Origin: a virus
Virus record (IMG/VR): IMGVR_UViG_3300027704_000116
Span: 1 to 29,233 of that record
Reading direction: 5' to 3' (one strand)
DNA length: 29,233 bases
Shown: positions 1,233 to 29,058 of the stretch, piece by piece
Numbering within the stretch: the stretch's first letter is position 1
Layout of the letters: every line of letters starts with the position of its first letter
Notes under the pieces: generated by a model
What the model saw: the letters and a program-made list of their open reading frames with translations, nothing else
Told to the model about the DNA's origin: nothing
Databases searched by the model: none
Made by a program: the position numbers and the translations under genes

Positions 1233-1616
1233 TTATTTAGTTGTTTTACTCCATCTTGCTCTGTAGTCTCTGATATCTACATGTGTAAATGTATTGTAAA
1301 TTCCAATACCACCTAGTTCAAAGGTTTCACTTTTCATTAAATCGTCTACTATTTGAGCCATTTCTTTAGGCTTAATTGACTCAGACTTTATATCAGCAGC
1401 TTTACCTACTAAATGCTGTGAGTTTGTAGATCCTCCAACATCTGAGTTATGCTCTTTACAGCGATAAGCATTAGTTAGATCTAATCTACCTACAAAGTCT
1501 CTTAGAACCTGCAAGTTGTCTGCTAATTCAATTATGTTTTTCTTTACAAACTCAGGCATTTTACACCCACATTTGCATTCAAACTCTTCTAAATTAAAAT
1601 TATTTGTTAACTTCAT
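1233..1616 (-). CDS. M15-family peptidoglycan peptidase (endolysin-like)
   Basis: A 127-residue, single-domain protein of the peptidase M15A type (zinc DD- or L,D-peptidases that cut peptide cross-links of peptidoglycan). The zinc site is visible: SQHLVGKAAD gives H68 and D75 in the family's SxHxxGxAxD motif, and THVDIR gives H112. D114 follows in the HVD motif, and the substrate-side motif AYRCKEHN lies at residues 50-57. The N-terminus carries an ECKCGCK cysteine cluster (residues 13-19), usual in phage members of this family. There is no signal peptide or holin beside it, so export would need a holin elsewhere, or the enzyme could be carried in the virion. Its start overlaps the stop of the 2718-residue gene by one base (TAATG). 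Family assignment is strong; lysis versus entry role is open. Confidence 0.9.
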   Translation of the reverse strand: MKLTNNFNLEEFECKCGCKMPEFVKKNIIELADNLQVLRDFVGRLDLTNAYRCKEHNSDVGGSTNSQHLVGKAADIKSESIKPKEMAQIVDDLMKSETFELGGIGIYNTFTHVDIRDYRARWSKTTK

Positions 1617-4600
1617 TAATATCCAGATATTTTTCCTTGGGAATTAACTGTTGATCTTTTAATACCCGTTTTTTTCGCCTTAGATTTAGATTTAGTTTTT
1701 GATTTTTTCTCAGTCAATCCTAATTCCCATTCATTCCAACCCATTAGCAAAGCGATTCTTTCATAAGTTGCAACCTCTGAATCTGAAGCAGCTTTTAGGT
1801 TATTTAACTTCTTTACAGCTCTATCAAGCGGTACGTTTGTAAAGGCGGAAACAGCATTACCACCTGCTAAAAACCCTGGATTATCTAAACTAAAACCTTT
1901 AGTTTTAATTTCATCCATGTTCCAAGAAGCAGTTCTACCTGCTGATTGTAGTTTTTGTATTTTAGATGCAATAGGTGGTGATATCCTTAATACGTCTAAA
2001 ATTTTATCTTGGTATTTAGGATTTTTCGTCTTTGAAGCCTCATAAAGCTTTATACTCGTATTTTTTACAACGGTAAATACAGCTCCCAATAAACCAGTAC
2101 CTCTAGCTATAGAATCAACCATCCCATTTATCACTTTTGGTACTTTTTCTTCTAAAATGCTTTCGTCTTCTTCTTCATCTTCAAACATTAAAGCAAACAA
2201 AGCTTGTTGCATAGTACTAAAAACTAGATTTTGTGCAACACCATAATATAATATCTTAGACAAATTAGTTTTATTGTCGCCTCGACCATTCTTAATGTCA
2301 CTAGCGGCTTTTTTTATTATACGTGCATATTGAGCAGGTGTGTTAGCGAAAGCTAGTATAATACGCCCTAATGGACCAGCTTGCTGTTGACTAATTTTAT
2401 CAGGCCTACTTGATTGCTGAGACTCTTCTGCTACTTCTCTAAAGTCCTGCATTGCTTGTTTGTTTGCAGCTATAGGATTCATACCTCCTTTTACTAGAGA
2501 TTTAATTCTATTTCTATAGAAAGTAGATCCACCAGATGCAATAGCAAAACTATCTGCTAGTTGAGTTGGTGTAAAACCTAGTTTAAGTAGTTTATTTATA
2601 ACACCTCTTACTCCACTCTCTTTAGCTACATTAGCAATGTCTTCTTCATTTATATTTATCTTTAAACCGTCACGTCTTTCAAGTAAAAACTCAGAATTCC
2701 ACAATGTTTTAAAGTCACTCCAGTATTGAGGTTGATTAGCAAATGCTTTACCAGCGGCTATAACATTATTGTCACCAAAATCTATAAAGTTCACTGCAGA
2801 TATAAGCTGTAAAGCAGCAGACCTAGTGTTGAAAAACATAATAGCAGCAGTAGATCCATTAATCCAGTCAGTAAAACGTCCAGTTGTAGTATCACCGCCA
2901 TAGGTTCTGTTTCTACCAGTCTCCATCCTATGTAATACATTCTCTATAGCTACTCTATAAGATTTACCATAAGCAGCTTCTAGCTTGTTTAGATTTTCAA
3001 CAGAAAATATACTGTCAACATTTTGTTTCCATACCCCTAGATAGTCTGCTCTACCAGTGGTGTTTAAAGCCTCTAACAAGTCAGTGGTAATAGTACCAGT
3101 GACCCATGTTTCCGAAGGTGATACATACGCTCTACCTTTATTAAGTTTCATTATTTCTTGAGCAAATAACTGCAGCTTAGGATCAGAGTCTACTAAAGAA
3201 ACTAACTCAAGTGCGTCTGCCTCAGATAACCCTGGCACGTCTTTACCTATTTGATGCCATATATACACGCGTACAGCTTGCTCTCTTGTGAAATCACTAC
3301 CTTTTGCTGTTTTTTTAAGATTTCTAGGTACTATTTTTAAATCTTTTTTCAAGGCTTTAAAGTCTCTACCTAGATTGTTTCTATCTCTAGTTATATTTGC
3401 AACCCCTTTAGCGAAAGGATTTAATAAATTATCTTTATACCATTTCATTTGAGAGTCTCCAAGAGTACCTTTACCTAAAGTAGCGTATAATAAACCTACG
3501 AAATCTTCAGCTGCCGGTGGTATAAAGAAATTAAATTTACCTTTTTTCTTGCCTCTTAAAGCAGCTTTTACAGATGCAAATGTTTTATTAGAAGCAATAC
3601 CGGTTTTATTTTCTATTATATCATTAAACTCTTTATCGAGTTTAGAATCTGCTGCTTTAGAGAATTGAAGTTCAGCTTGATTAATCTCGTCATCTAGCTC
3701 ACCCATTCTATCTAAAACATCTTGATTTGTAAAATCACCTGTTAGCCTTTGTGATTCAGGTAACATGTCATTATTAGATTTCGCAGCTTTATCTACAGAT
3801 TTGCTAAGCTGAATATAAGACTTTTTAATGTCCTCTAATTCAGCCATCCTGTCAATAATAACATCACTAACTCCATCTGTAATTCTTTCCGCGTAATACT
3901 CAGTTGATTTATTTAAAGCGGAAACAATTTGTGATCTTTCTTTTATTAGAAATATATTTTTTTCAGTTACTTTTGGTTTTTTAGGTGATTTACCATATTT
4001 ACCAACTAATATTTCCTCCTTTATATATCTATTTTCGCTTAACCTTTCATGTGAAACAGTGCGTTTTGTAACAATATCACCTGTTTTTAAATCTTTAACG
4101 TTAGATACTGATGAAATAAACTCTCCATTATTATATATACTTTTCAATTCTACTACAGCTCGCCCACCATCGTTCATTTTGGTGTTTTCAACTACTGTTG
4201 ATCTTAATAATTGACCATCTTTATTAAAAACTTTTTTATAAATAATATTTTTATCTGCATCATAAAGTGAGAAATTTGATTTCCTGCTCATAAAGTCACC
4301 TTCACCGTATCCAGTAATATCTATCCTACCCACAGAATCCATTGAACCAATAATCTTATACCCTGTAGCTTTATCATTACCTAGGCTAATTTTTAAGTCA
4401 GTAGTAGGGCTATCAAATCTATCCCACCATTGAGGATCTACTTCATAGTCATAAACACCAAGATCTGTCATTTCTGGGTCTCCTTCACCTCCGTCTCTAA
4501 GAGATAATAATTTACCGTTTTGAAAAGCTATTTTATAACCTTCACCTAGACCATCTACGTTGTACTGTTTCCAATGTGTCCATGCATTGAACATTTCATC

Positions 4601-7600
4601 TTTAGGATCAACAGGTTCCATAACAAACCACCTTTTCATGTTTGGCTTGTAGACAATAAACCAGCTCGTTTGTTGCTCAGCCAACTTCTTAGCTTCTAAT
4701 TTAGTTGGAAAGCTATCAACTGCCTTTTCTTTAGTCCTTGCTATTAAACACCAAGGATTAGCGTTTTCACCCCAAAAACTATCAACTATGCTTCTAACAG
4801 CTTCTTGGCCTTTTCTGGAGTCTACAACGTTATAAATAACTACACCGTCACCCATTTCCTGCTTATTGCTAAGCTGCGGTACGTTATCTGGATTTATTTT
4901 TTCCGTTCTAACTTCTTTAGTGAACTTGTTTATTAACTCATCTGGGTTTGGATAAGCATACGGATCTATTTTATTTTTATCAGACAATCTAATAACCTCT
5001 TCTATTTTATAACCATCTTCAGGAAATATAGTATAACCATTAACCGTATAATATAATGCTAATTTTTTGTACTTAGGTTTTTTGTTTTCTTGAACATTTA
5101 ATTCATTAGCCCATTCAAATAAGTTTTCAACTTGTTTAGGTATGTCTTTTAGATCTGGTCTTTTTTTCCTTAAAATACTCTCGTACTCAGCTCTTTTTTT
5201 CTTAGAGAACTGTATTTCTAACAAAGAATTATGATTGCTACCAGGTTGTAAGCCAAGATTGTTTATTATTTCTTGCTCTCTTACTACTCCTTCAATATTT
5301 TTACTAAACATTAAACTAGATTTACCAGCACCTAAATCGGCTTTAGCCTGATTACTATCTAACTTAGATCTACCAACAGTATTGATTACATTGTCGATGT
5401 ATATCTTAGTCAATCCAGTCAGTACACTTCCAAACTCAGTTCTAGCTTCACCTTTAATAGGTATACTTAAAGTACCTTTGTTTATTCCAATTAAGCTTTG
5501 TATTTTAGCTACAGAACTAGGTGATATATTACCTGTAAATTCAGGTTTTAATTTATAAACATCTGTCTGAGTAGTTTTACCAAGACTTCTTCCGTTTGGA
5601 CTAGATACACCAGGAATTGCACCATCTACTTTATCGTAAAATATTGCTAAAACCTTAGGATTAATACCTATTGATCTTCCGTAAGTATCTCTAGATACAT
5701 CTATAGTTTCACCCTGCTCATTTATAACTGTCTCTTTAGTAGCTATATTGTAATCTGGCATTGTTTTTATAAACTTTCTAACATCACTATCATTCTTGAA
5801 TACGTTCTGCAGAGAATTAGCCTCTGAAGACCCACCGCTTTTATCGTATTTTAATGTAGCGTTACCTCTAGCTTTCTTGCCACTTATACTAAATATAGCC
5901 TCAGACACTTTGTCAAAGAATTTGTTGTTTAAACTTTTGAAGTTAGGTCTTTCACCTTCTTTTATATCTATTACGCTTTCTACAGCTTCTAGTATTGAAG
6001 GGTCACTTATAGGACCAAAGCTTGTAGCTTTTATCATCTTCTGAGTAGAATCTTTTAAATCACTAGGTTTGCTATCGCTTCCATATAACGTGTTAACATC
6101 ACCTGACATTTCTTTAACAGATCCAACACCACCAGCTTCTACATCAAGACTTTTATCAGCTATCTTTTTAAACTTCTCGTAAGTCTGCTGAGCTTTAGGT
6201 GCCATGTTATTTGTAACCCAAGTAGAAAACTTAGATTTACTTGGATCAAACGATTCAACTACACGAGGGAAAAACTCTCTTAAATAATCTTTAATTTCGT
6301 TTCTATCATAATCTCCTTTTCTTGTGTCGTATTTTATAGCTTTTAAAGCTAAAGCGTCGAATGAGTCTACTAAATCAGCTTTGGCTAAAGCTTTTTCTTT
6401 TCCAGTTATTTTAGGATCTTTTGATTTTATAGTTTCTATTAAACCTTCGTTATCGTATACTTTTTTAGGAGCTGATTTTTCTTTAGTTGAAGATTCTTTT
6501 TTAACACTAGGTTTTTTAGCTTGTCTTATTTTTAATTCTAAGTTAGATTTTTGAGCATCAAAGTCTCCTTCGTCCATCTCAAATTCTCTGTCTATTAAAT
6601 CTTCTAGTTCAGTATTAAGTTCTGAAACTGATTTAGATAAGCTAACACCGCTAACATTACTATCTCCATCTTTACCGGCAAGTGCTTTTAAAGATCCTTT
6701 AAAACTACCCTTACTGTAAGCTTTGTTATAATCTTTTATAAAGTTTATAACTCCTTCAGCTTTATCAAATCTTATGTTTTTCAGGCCTAAGTCTTGAAAA
6801 ATTCGTCTAAAGAAATCCTGTATTTTTGTTATACTAGACTCATTTAGTTTTACCTCTTTGTTAGTTACAGCCTCTGAAAATAAAGGAAGAATTTCTTCAA
6901 AGAACTTGTCAATAGTAATTTTATCATCAGTAGCATAGCTTTCTATACGTGCTACTATTCTTGAAGAAGATGAAGAGGATGCTAGTATTTCTTTTAAAAG
7001 CAATTCACCAGCCTGTTGAACTAGCTCTGGTTTTGATGACAGGGAAGCTTTTAGGAATTTATGTAAAAACTCATGTTGACCAGTTGTAACAACTCTATCA
7101 CTAAGCGCAGAAGCTTTGTTTACAACTAAAATTTCTTTACCATCTACAGTGACTACAAATGTTCCATAAGAGTCTTTTGATTCTTTAGCATATTCCTTAG
7201 ATTCACCAACGCTTATTAAAAATTTTTCCAGCTTATCATCGGCAGACCCATCTTGATCGTCCTCAAATATTTTGGTTTCATCTACTTTTTGACCAATAGA
7301 ATTTAGAGACTTTGCAAAATTACTTACATCTTTGTCAAATCTTTCAGTTATACTTCTTTTTATACTGCTATTTTCTATTTCACTATCAATTTCTTTAATT
7401 CTATCGTTTATAGGACCATGAAAAGAAGAGTCTGTGTTTTTCTTTTTCTCTATTAATTTCTTTTTCTGAATTAATAATTCTATCTGATCGGATGAAACAT
7501 TTTCTGGAGCTGTATTCATGACGCTAGCAACATCTCTAACGAACACTCTGGCTTTATTTATATCTTCTATAAGGCTAGGATCTGTAGCTGTCTCTAGCAT

Positions 7601-9772
7601 GGTTTTAAAGTATAAATCTGTAGATTTTAAATTGTTAAATATACCTTTATATATTTGAGATTTCTGAGCGTTATAAGTATTTTTAGCACCAGTAAGACCA
7701 ATACCACCACTAAGCATAAAGGTTCCAGCTATTAAGTTTATTTGCTCATCAACGAATTCATTTTGCTTTAATGCACCTAAGCCAAAAGCCATGTCTGTAA
7801 TAATGTTCATTCCAAAAGTAACCTCTTCTTCAAAAAATTCTTTAAACATATTTCCTGTATATGTTTTTACTGCTGCTTTAGTACTTTCTTTAGTAGTCAA
7901 TCCTTTTAAAGAATTAAATAATGCGTTTTTTATTTCTTTACCAGCACCACCTTTTATAAACTTATAATCAGGCATTATAGCTTGAACCAAGCCTTCTGTA
8001 AAAGAAACAGTTGTAGCATATAAATCCCCAGCAGGACCACTTAAACCTTTTTTGTTTGCTTCTATAGAATTATTCAAAATAGTCATCCTAAAAGCCGCAT
8101 CACTAGATATAATAAGGTTCTTCATGTTTTGAGCAGACTTTGTTACAGCTCCTGCTTTGGTATAATTTGAAAGCATTTTACCTAAACCCTCTCTATACCC
8201 TGTAAATTTACCTTGTTTTACATTTCTGATTATCTCAGCTGTAAAAGGAATCATATTAAAAGCTGTTTTACTCCATGCTCTAGCACTAAACTCCTTAAGG
8301 TTACCTTCACCATCTGTGATGTTAAATTTTTCATCCTTAGAGTCTGGAACCACGTTAAAGTTTAATAAATCACCCCAAGTATCCCTCATAGAGTCAAAGC
8401 TACTATAAGTGTCATCATCCGTAAACAAGTCTCCAAATGCAGTTGTTACAAAAACAGGGAATCCAACAACTGTTTGGCCAGCTAGTTTCACCATTTCTTG
8501 AGCAGCGCCTCCTACTTGATCAACAGCCCAGTTAAAAACTCCATCACCGGAAAAAGCTTCTGTGTATTTTTTTACATCATCAGTTAATTTAAAATTACTT
8601 TTCAAAGCCATTCTAGCTATATCTACACCCCATTGAGCGTTTATAACTTCTTGACTCTTATCTAAAGACTCTTGTTTACCCTTATATCTATCAGAAGTTT
8701 GCTTAAACGTGTCTTTTAGAGAGTTGTATTGTTCGAATAAACCATTATATTTATCTACAGTCTCTTGAGTGTAGCCAGTTGCAGGTTTATTGTTTTTTAT
8801 AAGATTCATACTTCTAACTAAGGATGATTCTTGTCTTTTTAAATCACCAAAAACATCTTCAGTTTCTAGTTTTAAAGCATCGTATTCTTTAACTAATTCC
8901 TTACGTACTTCTAATATTTTAGGTATTCTGTATTTATTTATTAAAGCTTCCTTGTCCTGCAAGTTCATCTTGCCATACGCTAACTTTTGTAAAGTTCTAA
9001 CGTCTTCACCTCCAGCAATAGCTCCTTCTAAACTTTCTTCAAGCTCTATTACTTGTGAAGGCACGTCGGTTTTAGCATCGTTTATCCAGTTACCAGAAAT
9101 AGATTGCAGTCCTTGTTTAAAAAGTCCTTGAGAAAAAGGAGTATCAAAAGTGTTACTCGTATTTCCCGTGTCTTTTCTTAGTTGTTCTATAGCTTTATCT
9201 TTTAATTTAAAGTTATCATCAAACTTATATATTTGCTCTTTTTCAGCTTTAGCTTCTTCATCAAATTTGTCTGACTGGTCATCTATATATTGCCTAGCAT
9301 CTTCCCAGGTATCAAACACATCACCTTCTAAACCGTCTTCCGCGTAGTTAGTTGCTAATTTAATTAATTTTTGTTTAGCTTCAGGCGTTTTCTCTAATGT
9401 CTTCTTTATTTCTTCATAATCTGTTATAACAACTCCAGAGCTATTTTTTTTACGCAGGGTTTCACCCATTGGACCTTTTTCAATATAGTCATCATCAGTT
9501 AAATCCATTATAGAACCAGGTTTATTACCTGTTCTTTGCTCGTAGTTGAAACTAGCCTGCTTGTTTGACAGTGGCTCCAAAGAACCATTTTCCGATGCTG
9601 AATCCATAGCTGTTACACTTGCATCCTCCGTTGCAACAGCTTCTGTCTTTACTGGTTTAACTTCTTCTTCAATTAGCACAGCTCCTTCAAATTGTTCAGA
9701 ACTTTTAAAATCTTCAAGTAAATTTTCAGGTACATTAATTAATTTACCTGATTTCAATCTATAGTATGGCAT
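1616..9772 (-). CDS. giant polyvalent internal virion protein with zincin motif (2718 aa)
   Basis: A 2718-residue protein that fills 28% of the window. The N-terminus MPYYRLKSGKLINVPENLL matches the 'YrLknGk-x-x-VPe' opening common to very large marine phage virion proteins. Visible parts are:
- a hydrophobic stretch near residues 427-448;
- an HEFLH zinc metallopeptidase motif at 900-904, with E967 in FSEA as a plausible third ligand;
- a Lys/Ser-rich linker near 1060-1110;
- a sigma-70 region 2-like helix block (FDPSKSKFSTW at 1175-1185);
- an unrecognised WCLIAR/WxHW module near 1674-1770;
- a helical C-terminal third with FFNTRSAALQ at 2312, NVPLDRA at 2646 and GWNEWELG near 2679, followed by a Lys/Ser-rich tail.
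Its position after the internal proteins suggests it is packaged and ejected like T7 gp16 or other polyvalent proteins. No lytic transglycosylase motif is visible. The peptidase might mature the virion or act in the host; both are inference. Confidence 0.85.
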   Translation of the reverse strand: MPYYRLKSGKLINVPENLLEDFKSSEQFEGAVLIEEEVKPVKTEAVATEDASVTAMDSASENGSLEPLSNKQASFNYEQRTGNKPGSIMDLTDDDYIEKGPMGETLRKKNSSGVVITDYEEIKKTLEKTPEAKQKLIKLATNYAEDGLEGDVFDTWEDARQYIDDQSDKFDEEAKAEKEQIYKFDDNFKLKDKAIEQLRKDTGNTSNTFDTPFSQGLFKQGLQSISGNWINDAKTDVPSQVIELEESLEGAIAGGEDVRTLQKLAYGKMNLQDKEALINKYRIPKILEVRKELVKEYDALKLETEDVFGDLKRQESSLVRSMNLIKNNKPATGYTQETVDKYNGLFEQYNSLKDTFKQTSDRYKGKQESLDKSQEVINAQWGVDIARMALKSNFKLTDDVKKYTEAFSGDGVFNWAVDQVGGAAQEMVKLAGQTVVGFPVFVTTAFGDLFTDDDTYSSFDSMRDTWGDLLNFNVVPDSKDEKFNITDGEGNLKEFSARAWSKTAFNMIPFTAEIIRNVKQGKFTGYREGLGKMLSNYTKAGAVTKSAQNMKNLIISSDAAFRMTILNNSIEANKKGLSGPAGDLYATTVSFTEGLVQAIMPDYKFIKGGAGKEIKNALFNSLKGLTTKESTKAAVKTYTGNMFKEFFEEEVTFGMNIITDMAFGLGALKQNEFVDEQINLIAGTFMLSGGIGLTGAKNTYNAQKSQIYKGIFNNLKSTDLYFKTMLETATDPSLIEDINKARVFVRDVASVMNTAPENVSSDQIELLIQKKKLIEKKKNTDSSFHGPINDRIKEIDSEIENSSIKRSITERFDKDVSNFAKSLNSIGQKVDETKIFEDDQDGSADDKLEKFLISVGESKEYAKESKDSYGTFVVTVDGKEILVVNKASALSDRVVTTGQHEFLHKFLKASLSSKPELVQQAGELLLKEILASSSSSSRIVARIESYATDDKITIDKFFEEILPLFSEAVTNKEVKLNESSITKIQDFFRRIFQDLGLKNIRFDKAEGVINFIKDYNKAYSKGSFKGSLKALAGKDGDSNVSGVSLSKSVSELNTELEDLIDREFEMDEGDFDAQKSNLELKIRQAKKPSVKKESSTKEKSAPKKVYDNEGLIETIKSKDPKITGKEKALAKADLVDSFDALALKAIKYDTRKGDYDRNEIKDYLREFFPRVVESFDPSKSKFSTWVTNNMAPKAQQTYEKFKKIADKSLDVEAGGVGSVKEMSGDVNTLYGSDSKPSDLKDSTQKMIKATSFGPISDPSILEAVESVIDIKEGERPNFKSLNNKFFDKVSEAIFSISGKKARGNATLKYDKSGGSSEANSLQNVFKNDSDVRKFIKTMPDYNIATKETVINEQGETIDVSRDTYGRSIGINPKVLAIFYDKVDGAIPGVSSPNGRSLGKTTQTDVYKLKPEFTGNISPSSVAKIQSLIGINKGTLSIPIKGEARTEFGSVLTGLTKIYIDNVINTVGRSKLDSNQAKADLGAGKSSLMFSKNIEGVVREQEIINNLGLQPGSNHNSLLEIQFSKKKRAEYESILRKKRPDLKDIPKQVENLFEWANELNVQENKKPKYKKLALYYTVNGYTIFPEDGYKIEEVIRLSDKNKIDPYAYPNPDELINKFTKEVRTEKINPDNVPQLSNKQEMGDGVVIYNVVDSRKGQEAVRSIVDSFWGENANPWCLIARTKEKAVDSFPTKLEAKKLAEQQTSWFIVYKPNMKRWFVMEPVDPKDEMFNAWTHWKQYNVDGLGEGYKIAFQNGKLLSLRDGGEGDPEMTDLGVYDYEVDPQWWDRFDSPTTDLKISLGNDKATGYKIIGSMDSVGRIDITGYGEGDFMSRKSNFSLYDADKNIIYKKVFNKDGQLLRSTVVENTKMNDGGRAVVELKSIYNNGEFISSVSNVKDLKTGDIVTKRTVSHERLSENRYIKEEILVGKYGKSPKKPKVTEKNIFLIKERSQIVSALNKSTEYYAERITDGVSDVIIDRMAELEDIKKSYIQLSKSVDKAAKSNNDMLPESQRLTGDFTNQDVLDRMGELDDEINQAELQFSKAADSKLDKEFNDIIENKTGIASNKTFASVKAALRGKKKGKFNFFIPPAAEDFVGLLYATLGKGTLGDSQMKWYKDNLLNPFAKGVANITRDRNNLGRDFKALKKDLKIVPRNLKKTAKGSDFTREQAVRVYIWHQIGKDVPGLSEADALELVSLVDSDPKLQLFAQEIMKLNKGRAYVSPSETWVTGTITTDLLEALNTTGRADYLGVWKQNVDSIFSVENLNKLEAAYGKSYRVAIENVLHRMETGRNRTYGGDTTTGRFTDWINGSTAAIMFFNTRSAALQLISAVNFIDFGDNNVIAAGKAFANQPQYWSDFKTLWNSEFLLERRDGLKININEEDIANVAKESGVRGVINKLLKLGFTPTQLADSFAIASGGSTFYRNRIKSLVKGGMNPIAANKQAMQDFREVAEESQQSSRPDKISQQQAGPLGRIILAFANTPAQYARIIKKAASDIKNGRGDNKTNLSKILYYGVAQNLVFSTMQQALFALMFEDEEEDESILEEKVPKVINGMVDSIARGTGLLGAVFTVVKNTSIKLYEASKTKNPKYQDKILDVLRISPPIASKIQKLQSAGRTASWNMDEIKTKGFSLDNPGFLAGGNAVSAFTNVPLDRAVKKLNNLKAASDSEVATYERIALLMGWNEWELGLTEKKSKTKSKSKAKKTGIKRSTVNSQGKISGY

Positions 9773-9787
9773 ATTGTTTTACTTTTA

Positions 9788-11371
9788 TTAACTTCTTTTT
9801 GTAACTTGATTTCCTCTTTTTTGGTCAACTTTAAAAACCTCAGCTTCGTTTTTTTCTTTTTCAAGCGCTTCAGCTTCTGCTTTTGCTTTAGCATCAGCTT
9901 TTTCTTTTGCTTTTGCTTCTGCCTCTTTTTTCTTTTTATCTAACTTAGACGATCTAAAGCTAGTATCATTTCTTAAAGCGTCTTCATATCCTTTTTGTTC
10001 TTTTTTTGATAGAATAGATGTACCTTTAGTTCTTTCTGAAGCTCTTAAAAGATTTAAATAAAACCTATTTCTATCTGTAGAGTCGTTCATTTTGTAAACT
10101 ACATCTTTTGTAAGTTCAGGATTATCTTTATCGTAATCACTAACAGACTCTTTACCAATTGTTATTGTATTTTTTTCTCGATTAAATATTGGTTTTACAC
10201 CAACATATTCTTGATACATACCAATAGGGTTTTTCTTCACTTCATTATAAAAATCTTTACCACTGTTAATATCATTAAAAGAATCTTCAGCGCTTTCTCC
10301 TTGTTTGCCAGTGTATTTATAAGGCTTTTTAAGATACTCAGCTTGGTTAGCTACAAATTTAGTAGCTGCGTTAGTTATAGCATCTTGATAACCTTCTTGA
10401 TTTAATGCTTCTGGTGATTTATCATCTTTATCAAAAATAAACCATTCTTTTGTTTGAGGAATTTCATCTGGCATGTTGCCGTCTTTATCAGGTGTTCTTA
10501 ATACATTATTATACAAGGCTATAGCATCGTTGGAAGATAGTCCTGATATTACGTTGGCTCTAACTCCTTTTTTTATGCTATCTTCAAATTTTTTCCTATT
10601 TGGCAATACACCAACAGCTCTTCCATTTTCGTATATCTTTTCACCTCCTTTATATATTTCGTTATTTGAATCAGCGAAATTAAATAATTCATTAGTAAGA
10701 CCTTGTTTTTTAAAGGAATCGACAGAAGGCTGCCAGTCTGGCACAAATTGCGGTAGCATTGAATCGTTTGATGGATCAAATACTTTACCTCCATTTTCAT
10801 AAGTTATTACTATGTTATTACTACCATCGCGAGTATAAAGAGCCGTTGTTTTAGACATAATACCGTCTGGGGTAGAATTGTAAAGACCTTCGTAAACTTT
10901 AAGCTCTTGGCCTTTAGAAATACCCCCCATAGTTCCAATAGGTAAAGCATACGCTGTATTAAAGGTAGTTTGTTTTCCAACATACTCTTCAGCAGCCGGT
11001 CTAGCTGCATCTCCTACAGTATTTGCTGTAGCTATTATTTGATTTTGATCAATAGATCTAGTTGGATTTTTTGATTCAATTTCATAAGCCTCATTAATAA
11101 TCCCTTTTGCGCCTGTGCCATAATCCACTGTAGGGTACTTTAAATCGGTCCTCATAGCAGAAGAAACGTTTTTATTTCTTTCTTTTATTAAACTATTCAA
11201 CCTAACTGTTTCTTGTGCTGCTCTTTTTTCTTTTTCTTGCTGTTCTTTAGCGTCGGCTGCTTTTACGGAATTAACGTAATTACCAAAAGATCCTGCAATT
11301 GTTTTCTGCAGGTTGGCATAATGCTGACCGGTTTGAGTGTCTACTACTTGTGTTGGATTTCTATAACTCAT
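9788..11371 (-). CDS. probable internal virion (ejection/cargo) protein (527 aa)
   Basis: A 527-residue soluble protein without signal or membrane segments. Residues 1-85 are helical and charged (KEQQEKEKRAAQE). The middle is mixed alpha/beta. Residues about 470-515 form a Lys/Ala/Glu repeat tail (KKKKEAEAKAKEKADAKAKA), likely a long helix or coiled coil. It lies between the small helical internal protein and the giant polyvalent protein. In podoviruses that interval holds internal core or ejection proteins (T7 gp14-gp15-gp16, P22 gp7-gp20-gp16), so I infer the same role. The start follows an A/T-rich leader (TTAAAAAAATAAATAATG). No enzyme motif is visible, and the family is not one I can name. 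Confidence 0.7.
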   Translation of the reverse strand: MSYRNPTQVVDTQTGQHYANLQKTIAGSFGNYVNSVKAADAKEQQEKEKRAAQETVRLNSLIKERNKNVSSAMRTDLKYPTVDYGTGAKGIINEAYEIESKNPTRSIDQNQIIATANTVGDAARPAAEEYVGKQTTFNTAYALPIGTMGGISKGQELKVYEGLYNSTPDGIMSKTTALYTRDGSNNIVITYENGGKVFDPSNDSMLPQFVPDWQPSVDSFKKQGLTNELFNFADSNNEIYKGGEKIYENGRAVGVLPNRKKFEDSIKKGVRANVISGLSSNDAIALYNNVLRTPDKDGNMPDEIPQTKEWFIFDKDDKSPEALNQEGYQDAITNAATKFVANQAEYLKKPYKYTGKQGESAEDSFNDINSGKDFYNEVKKNPIGMYQEYVGVKPIFNREKNTITIGKESVSDYDKDNPELTKDVVYKMNDSTDRNRFYLNLLRASERTKGTSILSKKEQKGYEDALRNDTSFRSSKLDKKKKEAEAKAKEKADAKAKAEAEALEKEKNEAEVFKVDQKRGNQVTKRS

Positions 11372-11395: not shown

Positions 11396-11497
11396 CTAAC
11401 TTAAAGTTCCGTAACTTTGAGAAGCAGTACCCCCCATTGTTGAGAAGTCAGGCATTACCATACCTCCCACAGTTTCACCAGGTGTAGCTGGACCTAC
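11396..11497 (-). CDS. -1 frame C-terminal extension of the small internal virion protein
   Basis: Directly after the slippery site at 11503-11497, the -1 frame is open for 33 codons and ends at TAG (11398-11396). It encodes VGPATPGETVGGMVMPDFST and then 13 more residues ending YGTLS. Read through a -1 shift at AAG (re-read AAA, also Lys), the product would be 259 residues instead of 226. The extension fills most of the otherwise unexplained 122-base gap before the next gene, and its Gly/Pro/Ser/Thr-rich sequence reads naturally after SSFGGK. A lost G in the G5 run (natural mutation or assembly error) would give the same picture. Confidence 0.6.
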   Translation of the reverse strand, partial: VGPATPGETVGGMVMPDFSTMGGTASQSYGTLS

Positions 11498-12174
11498 TTT
11501 CCCCCAAAGGAACTCATATAACTACCTCCAATAGATGCTAAACTACCAACCATACCTGTTATAGCGCCTGTTCTATCTGAACTAGCTTGAGACTCCCTTT
11601 GCGCTTCACCTGATATTTGAGCTGATAATCTATCCATTTGAGCAGTGTCTCTGCTTTCTTGAGCACCAAATACAAATTGTTTTCCTTGAGCTTCAGCTGA
11701 CTGTATCCTTTGAGCCTCTGACATTTTCTGTTGTTGCAGCTGTTGTTCTCCTTGCGCTCTTAGTTTTTCGTTTTGAGCTTCTTGAGCTTCTATACTTGCA
11801 GATACACCTTTCTTGCTTTGTAAAGCTGCTTGAGCTAAAGCTGTTGCTCCACCTGCACTTGCGCCCGTAGCTCTAACAGTATCTAAAGTATTAGCTAGCG
11901 ATATATCAGCTTCTTCTACCTGCATCTCAGCTGCTTGAGTAGCAACACTTAGATTAGCCATAGGATTACTAAGCATAGAAGATAAATCTTTTACATCTTC
12001 AAAAGGGTTTATAATATCTTGTCTGTCGTTAATTAATGCATTTAAAGATCTTTGAGCCGCTGCTTTTTCAGCTGCTGCTTTTTGTTCTGCTCTTTTCGCT
12101 GCGCTACTTCCGAATAAGCCGCTAACAAAAGATATAGCTCCTGAGATTAACGGTACTGCTAATGGTACTGGCAT
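11494..12174 (-). CDS. small helical internal virion protein, zero-frame form (226 aa)
   Basis: A 226-residue Ala/Gln-rich protein. It begins with a hydrophobic segment (PLAVPLISGAISFVSGLFG, residues 4-22). A long helical region follows with Gln/Glu/Ala repeats (residues 25-195), and it ends with a Gly/Ser-rich, mildly hydrophobic stretch (GAITGMVGSLASIGGSYM). A hydrophobic start plus an Ala/Gln-rich coiled coil is the architecture of small podovirus ejection proteins such as T7 gp14 or P22 gp7, which help form the channel across the host envelope. The position between the tail genes and the larger internal proteins agrees. The zero-frame product ends FGGK at TAG (11496-11494), directly after a lambda-type slippery heptamer, so a 259-residue form is probably also made. 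Role is inferred from shape and order. Confidence 0.75.
   Translation of the reverse strand: MPVPLAVPLISGAISFVSGLFGSSAAKRAEQKAAAEKAAAQRSLNALINDRQDIINPFEDVKDLSSMLSNPMANLSVATQAAEMQVEEADISLANTLDTVRATGASAGGATALAQAALQSKKGVSASIEAQEAQNEKLRAQGEQQLQQQKMSEAQRIQSAEAQGKQFVFGAQESRDTAQMDRLSAQISGEAQRESQASSDRTGAITGMVGSLASIGGSYMSSFGGK
11497..11503 (-). promoter_or_regulatory. candidate -1 ribosomal frameshift heptamer G GGA AAG
   Basis: On the minus strand the codons read TTT GGG GGA AAG TAG. The heptamer G GGA AAG is in the correct phase for tandem -1 slippage (GGA to GGG, AAG to AAA) and is identical to the phage lambda G-GT site. The next codon is a stop, which stalls the ribosome and can raise slippage. 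Only a weak possible hairpin (CCAG/CTGG) lies just downstream. Confidence 0.6.
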
Positions 12175-13672: not shown

Positions 13673-14095
13673 TTACTTTAAGTGAGCAGTTAGTTCCAAT
13701 GGCTGCCTTTGATATAACTTATTGAGTTCCACATTGTCTCCTAAACCAGAAGCTATCAATCCACCTATAACGTAATTGTGTTCGCTGTCTTTTTTGTTTC
13801 CATCAATTTCTAAATTGTAAAAGTTTTTTACATATTCTTCAGATACCTTGCCTTGAGAAGCTAAAGAAACCCATTCGTCGTTTATAAATATAGGGTGATT
13901 TTGTTCTCCTGTTATTCCATTAATTTTAACAACTTTAGCATCACTGTTAACTATATGTTTTAAAGCTTTTGTTACAACGCCCTTAACAATTAAACTATCT
14001 TTAAAGGATTTAACTTCATCACCAACTTCTATAAGGTCAATGCTTTTAAAATGGCCGTCATACATTTCAACTTCGTCTCCTTCAGTAAAGCAGCA
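13673..14095 (-). other. Hint (Hedgehog/intein) autoprocessing domain
   Basis: These are the last 140 residues of the tail protein. The block opens with CCFTEGDEV, then DGHFKSIDLIEVGDEVKSF, as in Hint block A. TGEQNHPIF (residues 1341-1349 of the protein) is the block B TxxH-type motif. The module closes with HNYVIGGLIASGLGDN. The usual intein end (His-Asn followed by Cys, Ser or Thr) is missing. I therefore expect N-terminal cleavage or thioester chemistry rather than splicing. Domain identification is by motif only. Confidence 0.75.
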
Positions 14096-17000
14096 CGTAC
14101 TTCCTCCAGTTGGGTTTCCAGGAACAGTTGTTCCGTTTAAATAACTTATTTGCCTATCATCTCCACAACATTGGCTACACCAAGTTTCAACAGCTGGATT
14201 CCCGCTACAATCAGTGTAGTTAAGAGTAGCGCCTCCTCCAAATGTATTGCTAGAGTATCTAGTTACGGTTATGCAGCTGTCTTCTGTTAAAATTACATCA
14301 AAAGTACATATTGAAGTAGCTGGACCAGCATCTGACAACACCAAAGTAACAGTATATGTTCCAGGTGTATTGAAAGCGGCTGGCTTAGATACCACACAAC
14401 TAAAAGGAGTGTTAGGATCTGAAGCGCTCCAGTTGGTTGTTGTCTGTATAAATGCGGGAGAAACAGCGGATCCGCTAGAATCTACTGTTGATATTGAGAA
14501 AGATAAGCCTTCGTATATACCTAAATAAATTCCTGTTGGAGTGTTGTCAGATATATTAGCGCCGTTTACTCCGTAGAAAGTTTCTACAATAACATCCCCT
14601 GTCGTACCTTTATTTATAGTACTAGGGCAGCTTTTAGGGGTTGGAGGGTTGGTATTTGTAACATACGCTGGATCAATATTTCCAAGAGCCGCGTACTCTA
14701 TTAGCTGAGTGCTAAATTCAGCACCGGCACTATCTAGCGTGACAACTGTGAAATAAAATATAAAGCTTTTATTTTGTATGCCGTTAATACCATAAACCCA
14801 GTCAAAATTATTACTTGAAGGAGCTACCGTGTTAACTTTGTATGAACCATTCCCTTCGTCTGAAAGACTAAACCTTGGAACTGCAACAGCAAAAACTTCT
14901 ACAGGAGTAGTTTCCAATGTTTTAACGCTCGTTAAGGTAACAGAGCTTATAGATGCATAAGGTATTGTTGCGCCAACAGCGTCTAATATAGTAAAACCAG
15001 CGGCTCCGGTTATTGATTGAGGATTTGATACGGCTTCTGTGAAAGTTCCAGTTGACCATCCACCAAGCGAACCAGCTCCGTTAGATTCATTTAGTATTAA
15101 AGTATTTAATTCACTAACTGATCCAGAGCTTGAAGACTCCCAAAATATATCTAAATTTGACTCTACAGGTGTAGTTTCAAATACAGCTAAACTATATTCA
15201 GAAGAAGCGTTTTGCGCTGTAAAAGTTAGAAATGTATTATCTGAAAGAGACTGTTGTTTATCAACTACCAAATCCGTAGTGCCGTTGTAGCTAACAACTT
15301 GCGTATTTTCAGCTACACCAACCCCTCTAACAATATCGCCAGGCAAAGGAGTTCCTTGTACGTTATCTATTAATATAGTTGTTGCATTAGTTGTCGACGT
15401 AGAGGTAGAGGCATTTGAAGCGGTTGTAACTACACCAAACTTTTTTTGTGTAGATATCTTAGATATCAAAGGGTTTGATTCTATTTCGTAAAAATCAGTT
15501 GTAGCTATATATTGTAAATCATCATCAGCGTTAAACAAGTCGTTATTTGTAGCTATCGTAGACACTGTACTAGAAAATCTACCTGGGAAATATTGTGAAT
15601 TAGCAGTTGGTATAGCGTTAGAATTGTTTTCTACTCTACCAAACAACTGAACACTACTTCTAAATTGTTTTTGTTGTGGCCCTACTTCTGATAAATCTCT
15701 AGGTACTTTATTTATATTGTCATTTAAAAGAACAGCAAAAGAAGTTTTTCCAAGTTCTAGCGTGTTGTCTCTAGGATAAGCTGCGAGAACACCAGGTAGA
15801 TATACATTGTAATATTCTTGTTCTGTTTGTTTAACCACAATCTTATAAGAATACCATCCTAAAGGATTGTAAAGAGAGCTAGTGGTATCGCCTTCATAAA
15901 CCCCAGGTTCATTAGTAGTTGTATTTGCTGTTTGCCCACTCAAAACGCTGTTAAACAAAACTTTCAACGAATCACCTGCCCAGTTATAAGAATCTGTACC
16001 ACTGGCTCTATAAGGTGAGTATATAGTAGACCCCACGTATTGCAATCCACCTATGTTTATACTAGTTAAAGAGTTAGACAGTATTACGCTAGAAGATCTT
16101 CCAAATTTATCTGAAAGAACAACGCCTACTTGATAGTTTCTATTTTGCTTTAAAGAATGATTAGGGTACTCAGTAATACTTGTTGTATTTATTTCGTCAC
16201 CAACAGGTTTAACTGTTAGCGTATAATTTGATGCTGGTAGTGTTTGTATTTTGTTTGTTTCTAATGCAGACCCACTCCAAGAAACTATTTTTGATCCAGC
16301 AGCTATGGAAGCGCCTGTTAGAACTCCTCCAACAATTACAGTTCCGGCAATTATAGTAGCGTTTATAGTAGTAGTTCCATTTCCACCTAAATTAGTAACA
16401 TTTAAAGTGCTTACATTTAGATTGAAAGGGCTTTTTTCTGATATAAGTAAATTATAATCTAAAGAAACCGGGGGAGTGTGTTTATCTTGGAAATTACTAT
16501 AAACTACCCTATTGCTTATAACCTCTTGACCAAAAGCTTTTACGGGAACTTTGTCGTATACTCTAATTAACTCGTCCGCTGGAAGCGTTTTAAATGGTTT
16601 TTTGGATTGATAATTATAAATGTAACTATTGCTATCGCCAACAGTGTCAGCTTTTACAGTAGTCATGTCTATAGTGTCTATAACCTTAACAGCTAAAGCA
16701 TCTGATTCTTTGTAAAGTATATCTATAGAAATAATTCTTAATGGGTTTGTGCCGGTAGAAGTAATTTCCCCTTTAGTAAAAGGAAGAGGTATTACTAGTA
16801 ATGTTTTATTAACTTTGTTTTCCATGAATTCTACTATAGTGCTTCTATAAGCGGCAGATTCATCATCAACGTCTATGTTAAAAGGGTTTGGTGCTGGTTG
16901 GTTATACATGAAGTACCCATCTTGCTTTGGTGTAAATGCTGTCTGTGTAAAGGGCGAGAATATAGAATATTCACCATCTTCAAACTGAAACCTATAAGCA

Positions 17001-17932
17001 AATCTAACAAATTTATCTTCTAAAAAATTAGGATCACCATTATATGTTGGATCAAAATACTTATTATATTTGAATATTAATTCTAAATCAGCCAGTTGAC
17101 CTGTAAAAGGACCTATTGCTATAGATGTAGTAACTTGGTTAGTTTGTAAAGAAGCCACAGTAGCACCTGTATTTACTAAAACAGGTGGGTTTTGTGATAC
17201 ATCAACGTAAGCTATAGTAGCTCCAATTGGGATATCTCCACTAACTGTACTAGATAGTAGAGGTATTGTCGTGCTGGCTACAGTAAGCTCGCCCGTAATA
17301 TTACCTGTTCCTCCTCCTGGATAAAACTTGCTAACAACATCGTACAATGTAGTTTCATAGCTGCCAGGTGCTAAATCACTTTCTCTATAAAGTTCTATTG
17401 ATTGATATGGATTGTACTTAGCTACTGATATTTGATCTTCAATTGAGTAATATGTACTGCTTTCAAGAGCTCTACTTAAGTTTATTTTTCTAGGCTGATT
17501 TCTATTATCCGTCCAAAACAGTAAATCTTCTAAAACATTTATACCATATATCTTGTTCAATGTTGAGAAGTTTAAAAAAGCGCCTTGTACTAAAATGCTT
17601 GAAGCGTTTGTTAAAGTGTTGTAGGCTATTATAAAATTCTTAGCATCCTTATCATAAGCTGCAGCGGTGTTATTTGTAAGAAAAACATACATAGTATCAT
17701 TAAGCTCATTAGCTAAGCTGCCTATGCTAGTTAACCCGTTTATTCCAGTAAGAGTAAAAAAGTTAACAACTAAACCGTTTCCTAAAGCATTTTCTAAAGA
17801 ACCTACACCTGCACCTTCTGATTTACTTACTTGAGTGTTTATAGCATTTCTGTACTCGCCCGAAGGTAACAGTCTAGCGTCCAAGTCTTTATTCATCTTG
17901 GACTTTATAAAAGCATTTTTAACCTCTCCCAT
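13673..17932 (-). CDS. large tail protein with PKD-like, Cys-rich and C-terminal Hint domains (1419 aa)
   Basis: The N-terminus contains LLPSGEYRNAINTQVSKSEG (residues 21-40), a block I associate with tail nozzle or tubular proteins of marine and flavobacterial phages. WTDNRNQPRKINL at about residues 139-151 is a typical propeller blade sequence. The chain is beta-rich, with three similar Gly/Val-rich modules near residues 211-270, 525-570 and 850-885. After these come:
- a PKD/Ig-like segment (FNTPGTYTVTLVLSDAG, about 1187-1203);
- a Cys-rich segment with C1220, C1242, C1252, C1255 and C1256;
- a Hint domain from C1280/C1281 to the end.
It is five bases after the connector-like gene. The gene order supports a distal tail component, probably a nozzle with host-contacting domains. 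The Hint domain suggests that the mature protein is cut near residue 1280. Tail role is fairly certain; exact position in the particle is not. Confidence 0.8.
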   Translation of the reverse strand: MGEVKNAFIKSKMNKDLDARLLPSGEYRNAINTQVSKSEGAGVGSLENALGNGLVVNFFTLTGINGLTSIGSLANELNDTMYVFLTNNTAAAYDKDAKNFIIAYNTLTNASSILVQGAFLNFSTLNKIYGINVLEDLLFWTDNRNQPRKINLSRALESSTYYSIEDQISVAKYNPYQSIELYRESDLAPGSYETTLYDVVSKFYPGGGTGNITGELTVASTTIPLLSSTVSGDIPIGATIAYVDVSQNPPVLVNTGATVASLQTNQVTTSIAIGPFTGQLADLELIFKYNKYFDPTYNGDPNFLEDKFVRFAYRFQFEDGEYSIFSPFTQTAFTPKQDGYFMYNQPAPNPFNIDVDDESAAYRSTIVEFMENKVNKTLLVIPLPFTKGEITSTGTNPLRIISIDILYKESDALAVKVIDTIDMTTVKADTVGDSNSYIYNYQSKKPFKTLPADELIRVYDKVPVKAFGQEVISNRVVYSNFQDKHTPPVSLDYNLLISEKSPFNLNVSTLNVTNLGGNGTTTINATIIAGTVIVGGVLTGASIAAGSKIVSWSGSALETNKIQTLPASNYTLTVKPVGDEINTTSITEYPNHSLKQNRNYQVGVVLSDKFGRSSSVILSNSLTSINIGGLQYVGSTIYSPYRASGTDSYNWAGDSLKVLFNSVLSGQTANTTTNEPGVYEGDTTSSLYNPLGWYSYKIVVKQTEQEYYNVYLPGVLAAYPRDNTLELGKTSFAVLLNDNINKVPRDLSEVGPQQKQFRSSVQLFGRVENNSNAIPTANSQYFPGRFSSTVSTIATNNDLFNADDDLQYIATTDFYEIESNPLISKISTQKKFGVVTTASNASTSTSTTNATTILIDNVQGTPLPGDIVRGVGVAENTQVVSYNGTTDLVVDKQQSLSDNTFLTFTAQNASSEYSLAVFETTPVESNLDIFWESSSSGSVSELNTLILNESNGAGSLGGWSTGTFTEAVSNPQSITGAAGFTILDAVGATIPYASISSVTLTSVKTLETTPVEVFAVAVPRFSLSDEGNGSYKVNTVAPSSNNFDWVYGINGIQNKSFIFYFTVVTLDSAGAEFSTQLIEYAALGNIDPAYVTNTNPPTPKSCPSTINKGTTGDVIVETFYGVNGANISDNTPTGIYLGIYEGLSFSISTVDSSGSAVSPAFIQTTTNWSASDPNTPFSCVVSKPAAFNTPGTYTVTLVLSDAGPATSICTFDVILTEDSCITVTRYSSNTFGGGATLNYTDCSGNPAVETWCSQCCGDDRQISYLNGTTVPGNPTGGSTCCFTEGDEVEMYDGHFKSIDLIEVGDEVKSFKDSLIVKGVVTKALKHIVNSDAKVVKINGITGEQNHPIFINDEWVSLASQGKVSEEYVKNFYNLEIDGNKKDSEHNYVIGGLIASGLGDNVELNKLYQRQPLELTAHLK

Positions 17933-28233: not shown

Positions 28234-28508
28234 TATTTAGATCTACCTTCAGCGAATCCTTTAAAAGCTTTTTCTTCTCTAGCTTCTTTAGGTTTCTCGT
28301 TAAGAATATTGTCTTCTTCATCTATACGTTTAAGTATTTCAAAAGCATCAAATATTGCTAATTTTTTAGTAGCAGCTGCATTTTTAAGCTTGTCTGCTGT
28401 TAAATCATCATCTGAATCTACAATAAGTTCTTTAGCTACCTTTACTAGTTCCGCTATCGCGATGTGCCCAGCTTGGATTATACTCAACTTGGTTTCCTTG
28501 GTGTTCAT
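28233..28508 (-). CDS. small protein upstream of TerL, candidate terminase small subunit (91 aa)
   Basis: A 91-residue helical, charged protein. It has IIQAGHIAIAELVKVAKELI (residues 10-29), then DDLTADKLKNAAATKKLAIF, then an acidic/basic tail ending EGRSK. Its stop overlaps the terminase ATG by one base, and its start lies 77 bases inside the preceding GroES-like gene. Short helical proteins just before the large subunit are commonly small terminase subunits that bind DNA and set packaging initiation. No helix-turn-helix is clear, so this is a position-based guess. No in-frame Met after residue 1 would shorten the overlap. Confidence 0.65.
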   Translation of the reverse strand: MNTKETKLSIIQAGHIAIAELVKVAKELIVDSDDDLTADKLKNAAATKKLAIFDAFEILKRIDEEDNILNEKPKEAREEKAFKGFAEGRSK

Positions 28509-29058
28509 ATTTGATTACAATATCATTAGATTTCATACAGAAAACTCTCTGCTCATCAACGATAAAATCCCATTCACTGTTAGGAGTAAATCCTACAACG
28601 TCACCTGGGTTAATATTAAGTGCTTTTAAGGAGTTATTACCATACTTTAGTATACCAATAAGCTTTTGCTCTTTATCGTTCGTTAGAATGTCTTCATTTT
28701 TTAGAGGCATTACAAAACATCTGTCTCCAAATGATTTCCAATCCTCTGTATTTTTATACAAATATATTTGGTCTACAGCACAGAAATATAAATCATCTTT
28801 AAAGTATGACCTACTATTTTTCTTTACACCTTTCATGTCGTAGAATACTCTAAAAACATTGTGGTGTATTAACACTATATCTCCTTTTTGTATACTTGTT
28901 TTGAATGCTTTTGGCGTTTCTATTACAACAGCTAAGTTGTTAACAGATTTAAAACTTTCTATCTTAGTATTTAAAACTAAAGTTTTGTCACCAATCTTTA
29001 TCTCGTTTTCATATCTATCACCAAGAGGTTTGATGATGAAGTCGTACAAGCTCTTCAT
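28432..29058 (-). CDS. tandem GroES/Cpn10-like co-chaperonin protein (208 aa)
   Basis: The first half (residues 7-103) has a Cpn10 layout: FIIKPLGDRY (like GroES 'IRPLhDRV'), a central strand LAVVIETP, then IQKGDIVLIHHNVFRVFY (like 'VKVGDIVxF'), and LYFCAVDQIYLYKN (like 'EsDILAVIE'). The second half repeats this: GDRCFVMPLK (111-120), QKLIGILKYG (131-140), ININPGDVVGFTPNSEWDF (147-165) and VFCMKSNDIVIKYEHQ (172-188). A tail YNPSWAHRDSGTSKGS follows. A role with host GroEL in folding capsid proteins is the natural reading by analogy to T4 gp31 and GroES-like phage proteins. The GroEL-binding mobile loop is not clear in either half. Its last 77 bases overlap the next gene. Fold assignment is moderate; function is inferred. 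Confidence 0.65.
   Translation of the reverse strand: MKSLYDFIIKPLGDRYENEIKIGDKTLVLNTKIESFKSVNNLAVVIETPKAFKTSIQKGDIVLIHHNVFRVFYDMKGVKKNSRSYFKDDLYFCAVDQIYLYKNTEDWKSFGDRCFVMPLKNEDILTNDKEQKLIGILKYGNNSLKALNINPGDVVGFTPNSEWDFIVDEQRVFCMKSNDIVIKYEHQGNQVEYNPSWAHRDSGTSKGS

Follow-up and report, generated by a model that had tools for sequence, protein, structure and literature searches.

A sigma-like segment in a giant protein of the virion module

Whether a protein carried in a phage particle could bring part of a sigma factor into the host cell is the question raised by the window analysed here, a virus record of 29,233 bases. A sequence-only reading of it had proposed a sigma-70 region 2-like segment close to a metallopeptidase in one virion protein. 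The sigma-like peptides that it quoted are indeed present in one minus-strand ORF of 2,718 aa, at aa 1164-1201; the interval given for them, 6195-6430, corresponds to aa 1115-1192, and the last peptide extends 25 bases past it. Our preferred explanation, to which we give an even chance, is that the segment belongs to a diverged sigma region 2 (sigma2) domain of a giant, probably ejected protein, and that this domain would dock on the host polymerase and steer early transcription. The parts of the giant protein are as follows:

1616-9772, minus strand: giant ORF (2,718 aa), with which the large genes of the virion module end
6533-7255, minus strand: zincin-type metallopeptidase region (aa 840-1080)
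7061-7075, minus strand: HEFLH (aa 900-904)
6137-6451, minus strand: sigma region 2-like domain, helical, about 105 aa (aa 1108-1212)
5288-6010, minus strand: domain directly after the sigma2-like one (aa 1255-1495)
1619-3631, minus strand: C-terminal module, present in nearly all members of the family (aa 2048-2718)

The family was fetched using the first 480 residues of the C-terminal module as query. This conserved module recovered at least 585 relatives of the giant protein, a family large enough that many environmental viruses would be concerned, and 80 loci were retrieved from these. In a tiling of 78 related giants together with the window and L010, the N-terminus and the middle were variable, whereas the zincin, the sigma2-like domain and the C-terminus formed conserved blocks in that order, with the variable middle before the C-terminus; most of the giant protein evolves fast. 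The contigs of the relatives L221-L226 had been assigned to MAGs of Aliivibrio, Woesearchaeota and Cryomorphaceae, and are probably phage contigs in these bins. One contig of 129,537 bp (G005, with L010 and L011) has both the giant gene and the sigma gene twice, about 62 kb apart, and looks as if two related phage genomes had been joined. The variable middle of the L004/L014 giant protein contains, by eye, a DFDDT motif, which we take to resemble HAD-type phosphatases and which suggests exchangeable effector domains in this part.

HMM searches that were iterated from the window segment, and the family alignment A4, found the sigma2-like domain in 63 of the 78 related giant ORFs (E < 1e-3), a count that includes the proteins that built the profile; there are 74 distinct giants among the 78, and 59 of these have the domain. 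A4 holds 53 sequences, from 56 rows: it omits L001 (the window itself), L016 (a duplicate of L005), L009 (loop insertion) and L077 (long insertion), and includes an added window row. A scan of viral contigs with the domain of L062 gave 131 matching stretches, 80 of which were kept, some of them at already-known loci. No similar place was found in annotated phages for the whole giant protein (at 1e-5) or for the segment of L011, a divergent copy, nor in phages or plasmids for the L062 domain; 14 phage records matching the window segment had E values of 2-9 and were taken as chance. A Pfam scan of the whole 2,718-aa protein gave nothing below E 0.49.

The metallopeptidase claimed as a neighbour holds up well. 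The H, E and H of HEFLH are invariant in all 35 aligned sequences, as is an E further downstream (E960 in the window) which is likely the third zincin ligand. The zincin region was detected in 77 sequences, and matched zinc endoproteases of the PDB weakly (E 0.15). The sigma2-like domain comes after the HExxH motif in every one of the 57 members having both, at a distance of 146-362 residues (median 168; 208 in the window). The model of the domain that follows it (aa 1255-1495), built in the same way as that of the sigma2-like domain, was confident (pLDDT 84.9, pTM 0.84) and found no fold match in the PDB, which makes it a candidate for a new fold.

The hallmark motif within its family

The segment had been recognised by its likeness to FDPxKGxKFSTYA, regarded as the hallmark of sigma region 2. 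The peptides and the motif lie as follows:

6260-6283, minus strand: LREFFPRV (aa 1164-1171)
6218-6256, minus strand: ESFDPSKSKFSTW (aa 1173-1185)
6170-6217, minus strand: VTNNMAPKAQQTYEKF (aa 1186-1201)
6218-6250, minus strand: motif FDPSKSKFSTW (aa 1175-1185), placed on RpoD F419-Y430

Only the window phage has FDPSKSKFSTW in exactly this form. The closest relatives read YKPGDSKFSTW, YNPSEAKFSTW and YKPDESKFSTW, and near relatives retain [FY]xPxxxKFSTW; the 'FDPxK' half of the proposed hallmark is not conserved. In the two closest relatives the motif stretch has 78-83% identity, against mostly at least 94% in the flanks. Since the exact motif is private and its stretch is less conserved than the flanks, it has to be judged via the family. 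In distinct phage ORFs totalling 528,219 residues, FDPx4-5FST[YW] was found a single time, and in none of 50 shuffles, and [FY]xPx3-5FST[YWF] eight times against a shuffled mean of 0.1, these eight rows being one position in the window and its relatives; the third pattern counted was picked after the family had been seen, and is not independent evidence. A chance motif was rejected on the family-level evidence, whereas the lone Pfam match over 16 residues described below would not stand. In one relative (L009:6001-6486, plus strand) an insertion of about 40 residues sits precisely within the loop of the hallmark motif.

Profile similarity to sigma region 2

As a sigma-70 region 2-like segment the domain was supported in part: a profile match to sigma is present, but it is weak and stays below the Pfam threshold. 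Sigma70_r2 matched the window segment alone with E 0.024 over 16 residues and 15.0 bits, the gathering cut-off being 24, and appeared at E up to 1 in only 2 of the 53 family members, below the cut-off. PF25310 (VG15) was found in 3 of the 53, also below cut-off, with a best E of 0.00079, against 0.00056 in another search.

When the A4 profile was compared with 177,635 PDB sequences, the top four were sigma factors of distinct groups, all aligned through region 2 (8x6g, E 0.0043; 6pfv, 0.033; WhiG 7lq4, 0.077; ECF RpoE 2q1z, 0.22). The window clade (A7, 12 sequences) gave two hits only, both to ECF sigma factors (E 1.1 and 1.5); the mixed set without the FST motif (A6, 23 sequences) had 8x6g first, at E 0.16; and the A5 clade (18 sequences) gave 7xpm at E 0.037, and antichymotrypsin (0.12) ahead of sigma (0.17). 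The profile of the downstream domain of the same protein reached histone H2B at E 0.0038, a hit that we took as chance because the modelled fold of that domain matches nothing; with such a value coming from an unrelated profile, the E of 0.0043 alone could be chance as well.

The domain profiles were also scored with hhalign against a sigma2 reference profile built from 12 of 13 fetched sigma factors (FecI, poorly recovered by the profile, was omitted; a scan of viral contigs for sigma factors returned only near-copies of RpoD and was left unused). The scores were 29.8 for A4, 29.3 for A7, 23.5 for A5 and 23.2 for A6, and 27.9-28.0 for an enlarged set of about 70 non-redundant domains, with 6.7-8.5 for the reversed-profile control. 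The phages' own genuine sigma reached 77.5 with the same reference, compared with 23-30 for the domain of the giant protein, so that the relation of the latter to sigma2 is a remote one. In a decoy test, 134 profiles were seeded from stretches of the giant-protein and neighbour genes and built in one manner, and the 105 with at least five members were kept. The three profiles holding the domain (seeds: window, L062 and L052) ranked 1, 2 and 3 of the 105, with scores of 31.4, 25.5 and 25.4; the best others had 20.1 and 16.3, and the median was 10.0. One of these three reads PLAAY in place of KFST. A profile match to sigma, the lack of which would count against the sequence-only reading, is thus seen both in the four top PDB hits and in these ranks, and the similarity above the decoys is that of a remote member of the region 2 superfamily.

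Predicted structure of the domain

The AlphaFold2 model of the domain (pLDDT 80.8, pTM 0.70) has helices at aa 1109-1116, 1124-1145, 1157-1165, 1168-1174, 1182-1190 and 1193-1212. In Foldseek searches of the PDB, sigma chains, read from titles and chain letters, made up all but one of the 50 matches listed, with a best E of 0.085 and none at or below 0.001. With VIA-align 2 all the 50 matches listed were sigma chains, at Z 6.5-7.8, a range about which VIA-align warns for helical models and which can arise by chance; one family nevertheless fills the list despite the modest Z. For example, nearly the whole model was aligned to SigmaA domain 2 (4x8k_A; Z 7.3, rmsd 3.5, 94 aligned), over SigmaA residues which presumably span regions 1.2-2.4. 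Phage sigma factors were also repeatedly near the top of a fold search against BFVD. A fold unlike the region 2 helix bundle had been named as an argument against the proposal; the predicted fold instead retrieves sigma domain 2, and agrees with the region 2 fold at modest scores.

Each of these lines is weak alone. Taken together, the profile, decoy and fold comparisons make a sigma2 fold likely, as judged from profile similarity and the predicted structure, and true homology to sigma2, rather than convergence, is probable.

Promoter-reading residues and the clamp-facing helix

The hhalign register places RpoD F419 on F1175, F427-S428-T429-Y430 on F1182-S1183-T1184-W1185, D403 on E1159 and Q406 on D1162. 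RpoD W433, W434 and Q437, which we take to be the residues reading the -10 element, correspond to N1188, N1189 and P1192 in the window, where the residues for -10 reading are therefore absent. ECF sigma factors are also without the Trp pair. The domain does not qualify as a plain sigma-70 factor: the Pfam match is sub-threshold, the Trp pair is Asn-Asn, and no region 4 was found, either in the Pfam scan of the whole giant protein or in the downstream domain, which has no fold match.

T4 gp55 is described as binding the clamp helices through three acidic residues, which lie in its helix H3 (PMC7892883). On the helix presumed to face the clamp here, counted in the 49 of 53 sequences that could be anchored, acidic residues number 3.8 against 2.6 expected in A5 and 2.8 against 2.3 in A6, a slight excess, and show no enrichment in the window clade A7 (2.4 against 2.3). 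One clade retains acidic residues together with both glycines of the region 2.2 helix. Given the excess in A5, the slight one in A6 and none in the window clade, these alignments make docking on the polymerase plausible for only part of the family.

Gene neighbourhood and transcription context

Among the neighbour genes, PHROG matches identify a terminase, a portal and structural proteins of the virion. The capsid protein resembles a crassvirus capsid only below threshold (E 0.0048), so that 'crAss-like' is used here as a loose label. The giant gene stands at the end of this module, beside an M15 peptidase/endolysin and two smaller proteins:

9788-11371, minus strand: 527-aa protein adjoining the giant gene; no PHROG at E up to 1, no Pfam at E up to 0.01
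11494-12174, minus strand: 226-aa protein with hydrophobic N-terminus; no PHROG at E up to 0.01, only phrog_12304 at E 0.46

By their position, the first could be a second internal or ejection protein and the other possibly a small one of the same type. A giant multi-domain protein with a zincin, in a virion gene module, is what is expected of the polyvalent or ejection type, and from its place in the module and by analogy with the literature on polyvalent proteins it is probably packaged and ejected. Elsewhere in the window, a 1,419-aa virion protein (13673-17932, minus strand) ends with a Hint (Vint) domain at residues 1281-1402 (E 3.8e-9), perhaps a module by which a structural protein cleaves itself, and a co-chaperonin GroES-like protein (28432-29058, minus strand; phrog_13932, E 3.5e-21) is encoded near the terminase gene.

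The related contigs have sigma genes of their own. A Sigma70_r2 match in a separate ORF was found in 18 of 20 (e.g. L193, L194 and L195), in 12 of them above the Pfam cut-off; these stand-alone ORFs measure 237-274 aa, with one exception at 95 aa, and the FDP..FST motif is absent in the copies read. Weak region 4 matches occur in 6 of the 20, none above cut-off. The three fragmentary contigs that carry the nearest relatives and L004 gave no Sigma70_r2 match at E up to 10. The giant's domain is not specially close to the phages' own sigma, and its simple derivation from that gene was rejected, since its scores with a profile of their region 2 (12.9-17.8) are below the 20.1 that the best decoy reached with the general profile.

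A crude scan of ORFs longer than 250 aa in three contigs (62.7-64.6 kb), a reading by ORF length in contigs which may be incomplete, showed no RNA polymerase that was obviously the phage's own; judged by where they lie and how they begin, the ORFs above about 1,000 aa appear to be the giant gene and large proteins of the virion. This fits dependence on the host polymerase, without proving it. In PhicrAss001, by contrast, cargo proteins associated with RNA polymerase are described (PMC10172136), and N4 ejects a polymerase of its own (PMC12633501).

What the domain may do

In the preferred explanation, the giant multi-domain protein would travel in the virion and enter the cell with the DNA, in the manner of polyvalent or ejection proteins. 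In the cytoplasm the adjacent zincin might trim it, and the domain would dock on the clamp helices of the beta-prime subunit of the host RNA polymerase, the surface used by sigma70 region 2 and by the T4 late sigma gp55. It would so help to bring or redirect polymerase to the incoming phage DNA, before the phage makes its own stand-alone sigma factor. The docking step taken separately is tentative, and we consider it possible rather than probable.

The alternative that survives best, although we regard it as unlikely, is that a sigma2-derived helical domain has been reused as a structural spacer or as a packing or ejection element, making no contact with RNA polymerase. The loss of the promoter-reading residues, the lack of acidic enrichment on the docking helix in the window clade, the long insertion tolerated by one relative in the hallmark-motif loop and the fast evolution of most of the giant protein agree with a spacer; the constant place of the domain after the zincin (57/57) and the clade that keeps the acidic residues and both region 2.2 glycines argue against it.

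That an unrelated small helical bundle has a loop which happens to read FDP..KFSTW is improbable. Every single score is modest and a chance E of 0.0038 arose elsewhere in the same protein, as convergence would allow, but profiles from three seed proteins, including the one with PLAAY for KFST, beat 102 others, and profile and fold searches point to the same family.

It is more improbable still that the domain is a decoy, occupying the clamp helices so that the host's sigma factors cannot reach the core when the phage enters. A docking surface could persist without promoter-reading residues, and for their other genes the phages possess a genuine sigma factor; against this, early phage genes would still need a polymerase, none obvious having been seen in the three contigs.

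Finally, a functional promoter-specific sigma for early phage genes, similar to T4 gp55 and fused to the ejection protein, is very unlikely. The alignment to SigmaA (over what we assume to be regions 1.2-2.4), the absence of the Trp pair from ECF factors too and the example of gp55 discussed below speak for it; that no region 4 or helix-loop-helix partner was found, and that the next domain has no known fold, speak against it.

Strong promoters resembling those of the host are the usual explanation for how phages that lack a virion polymerase begin transcription in a hostile cell. If the preferred explanation is true, a sigma2-type domain that arrives together with the DNA would offer a further way to start transcription, and a directly testable one: a virion-borne factor for transcription recruitment, unlike either the virion polymerases of N4 and crAss phages or a polymerase-modifying enzyme such as T4 Alt. 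The full proposition, that a widespread group of uncultured crAss-like phages without an obvious polymerase inject a zincin-fused sigma2 module engaging host RNA polymerase at entry, is doubtful at present.

Comparison with known systems

In the open-access literature we recognised no description of a virion or ejected protein that contains a sigma-type domain. In overall design the giant protein resembles the polyvalent proteins of phages and conjugative elements, predicted to be injected (Iyer et al. 2017, PMC5512222): these are also giant and multi-domain, with a zincin, a variable middle and a conserved terminal module. Their transcription modules are described there as N4-like RNA polymerases and modifying enzymes, unlike the domain found here, and the word 'sigma' has 0 occurrences in the main text of that survey.

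The N4 virion RNA polymerase gp50, according to PMC12633501, is likewise a giant ejected protein with an HExxH domain and a large helical C-terminus, but it carries the polymerase itself. A relation between the two was rejected: the zincin, sigma2, downstream and C-terminal alignments had no profile similarity to gp50. Among phages, phiKZ GP68 and AR9 gp226 are divergent factors of sigma-like type whose N-terminal domain resembles region 2 (PMC7618050); they are subunits of phage-encoded non-virion polymerases, and do not belong to a virion protein acting on the host polymerase.

With sigma-70 region 2 (PF04542) the domain shares the predicted helical arrangement, the F/Y-x-P and F-S-T-aromatic positions and the register of regions 2.2-2.3, and it differs in scoring below the Pfam cut-off, in having no Trp pair and in lying inside a 2,718-aa protein. 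The precedent for a sigma2-type domain working without region 4 is T4 gp55, which, as described in PMC7892883, binds the clamp helices and reads a -10-like element, and to which our domain is likened by that description; gp55 is small, free and devoted to late transcription, whereas here the domain belongs to a giant, presumed virion protein.
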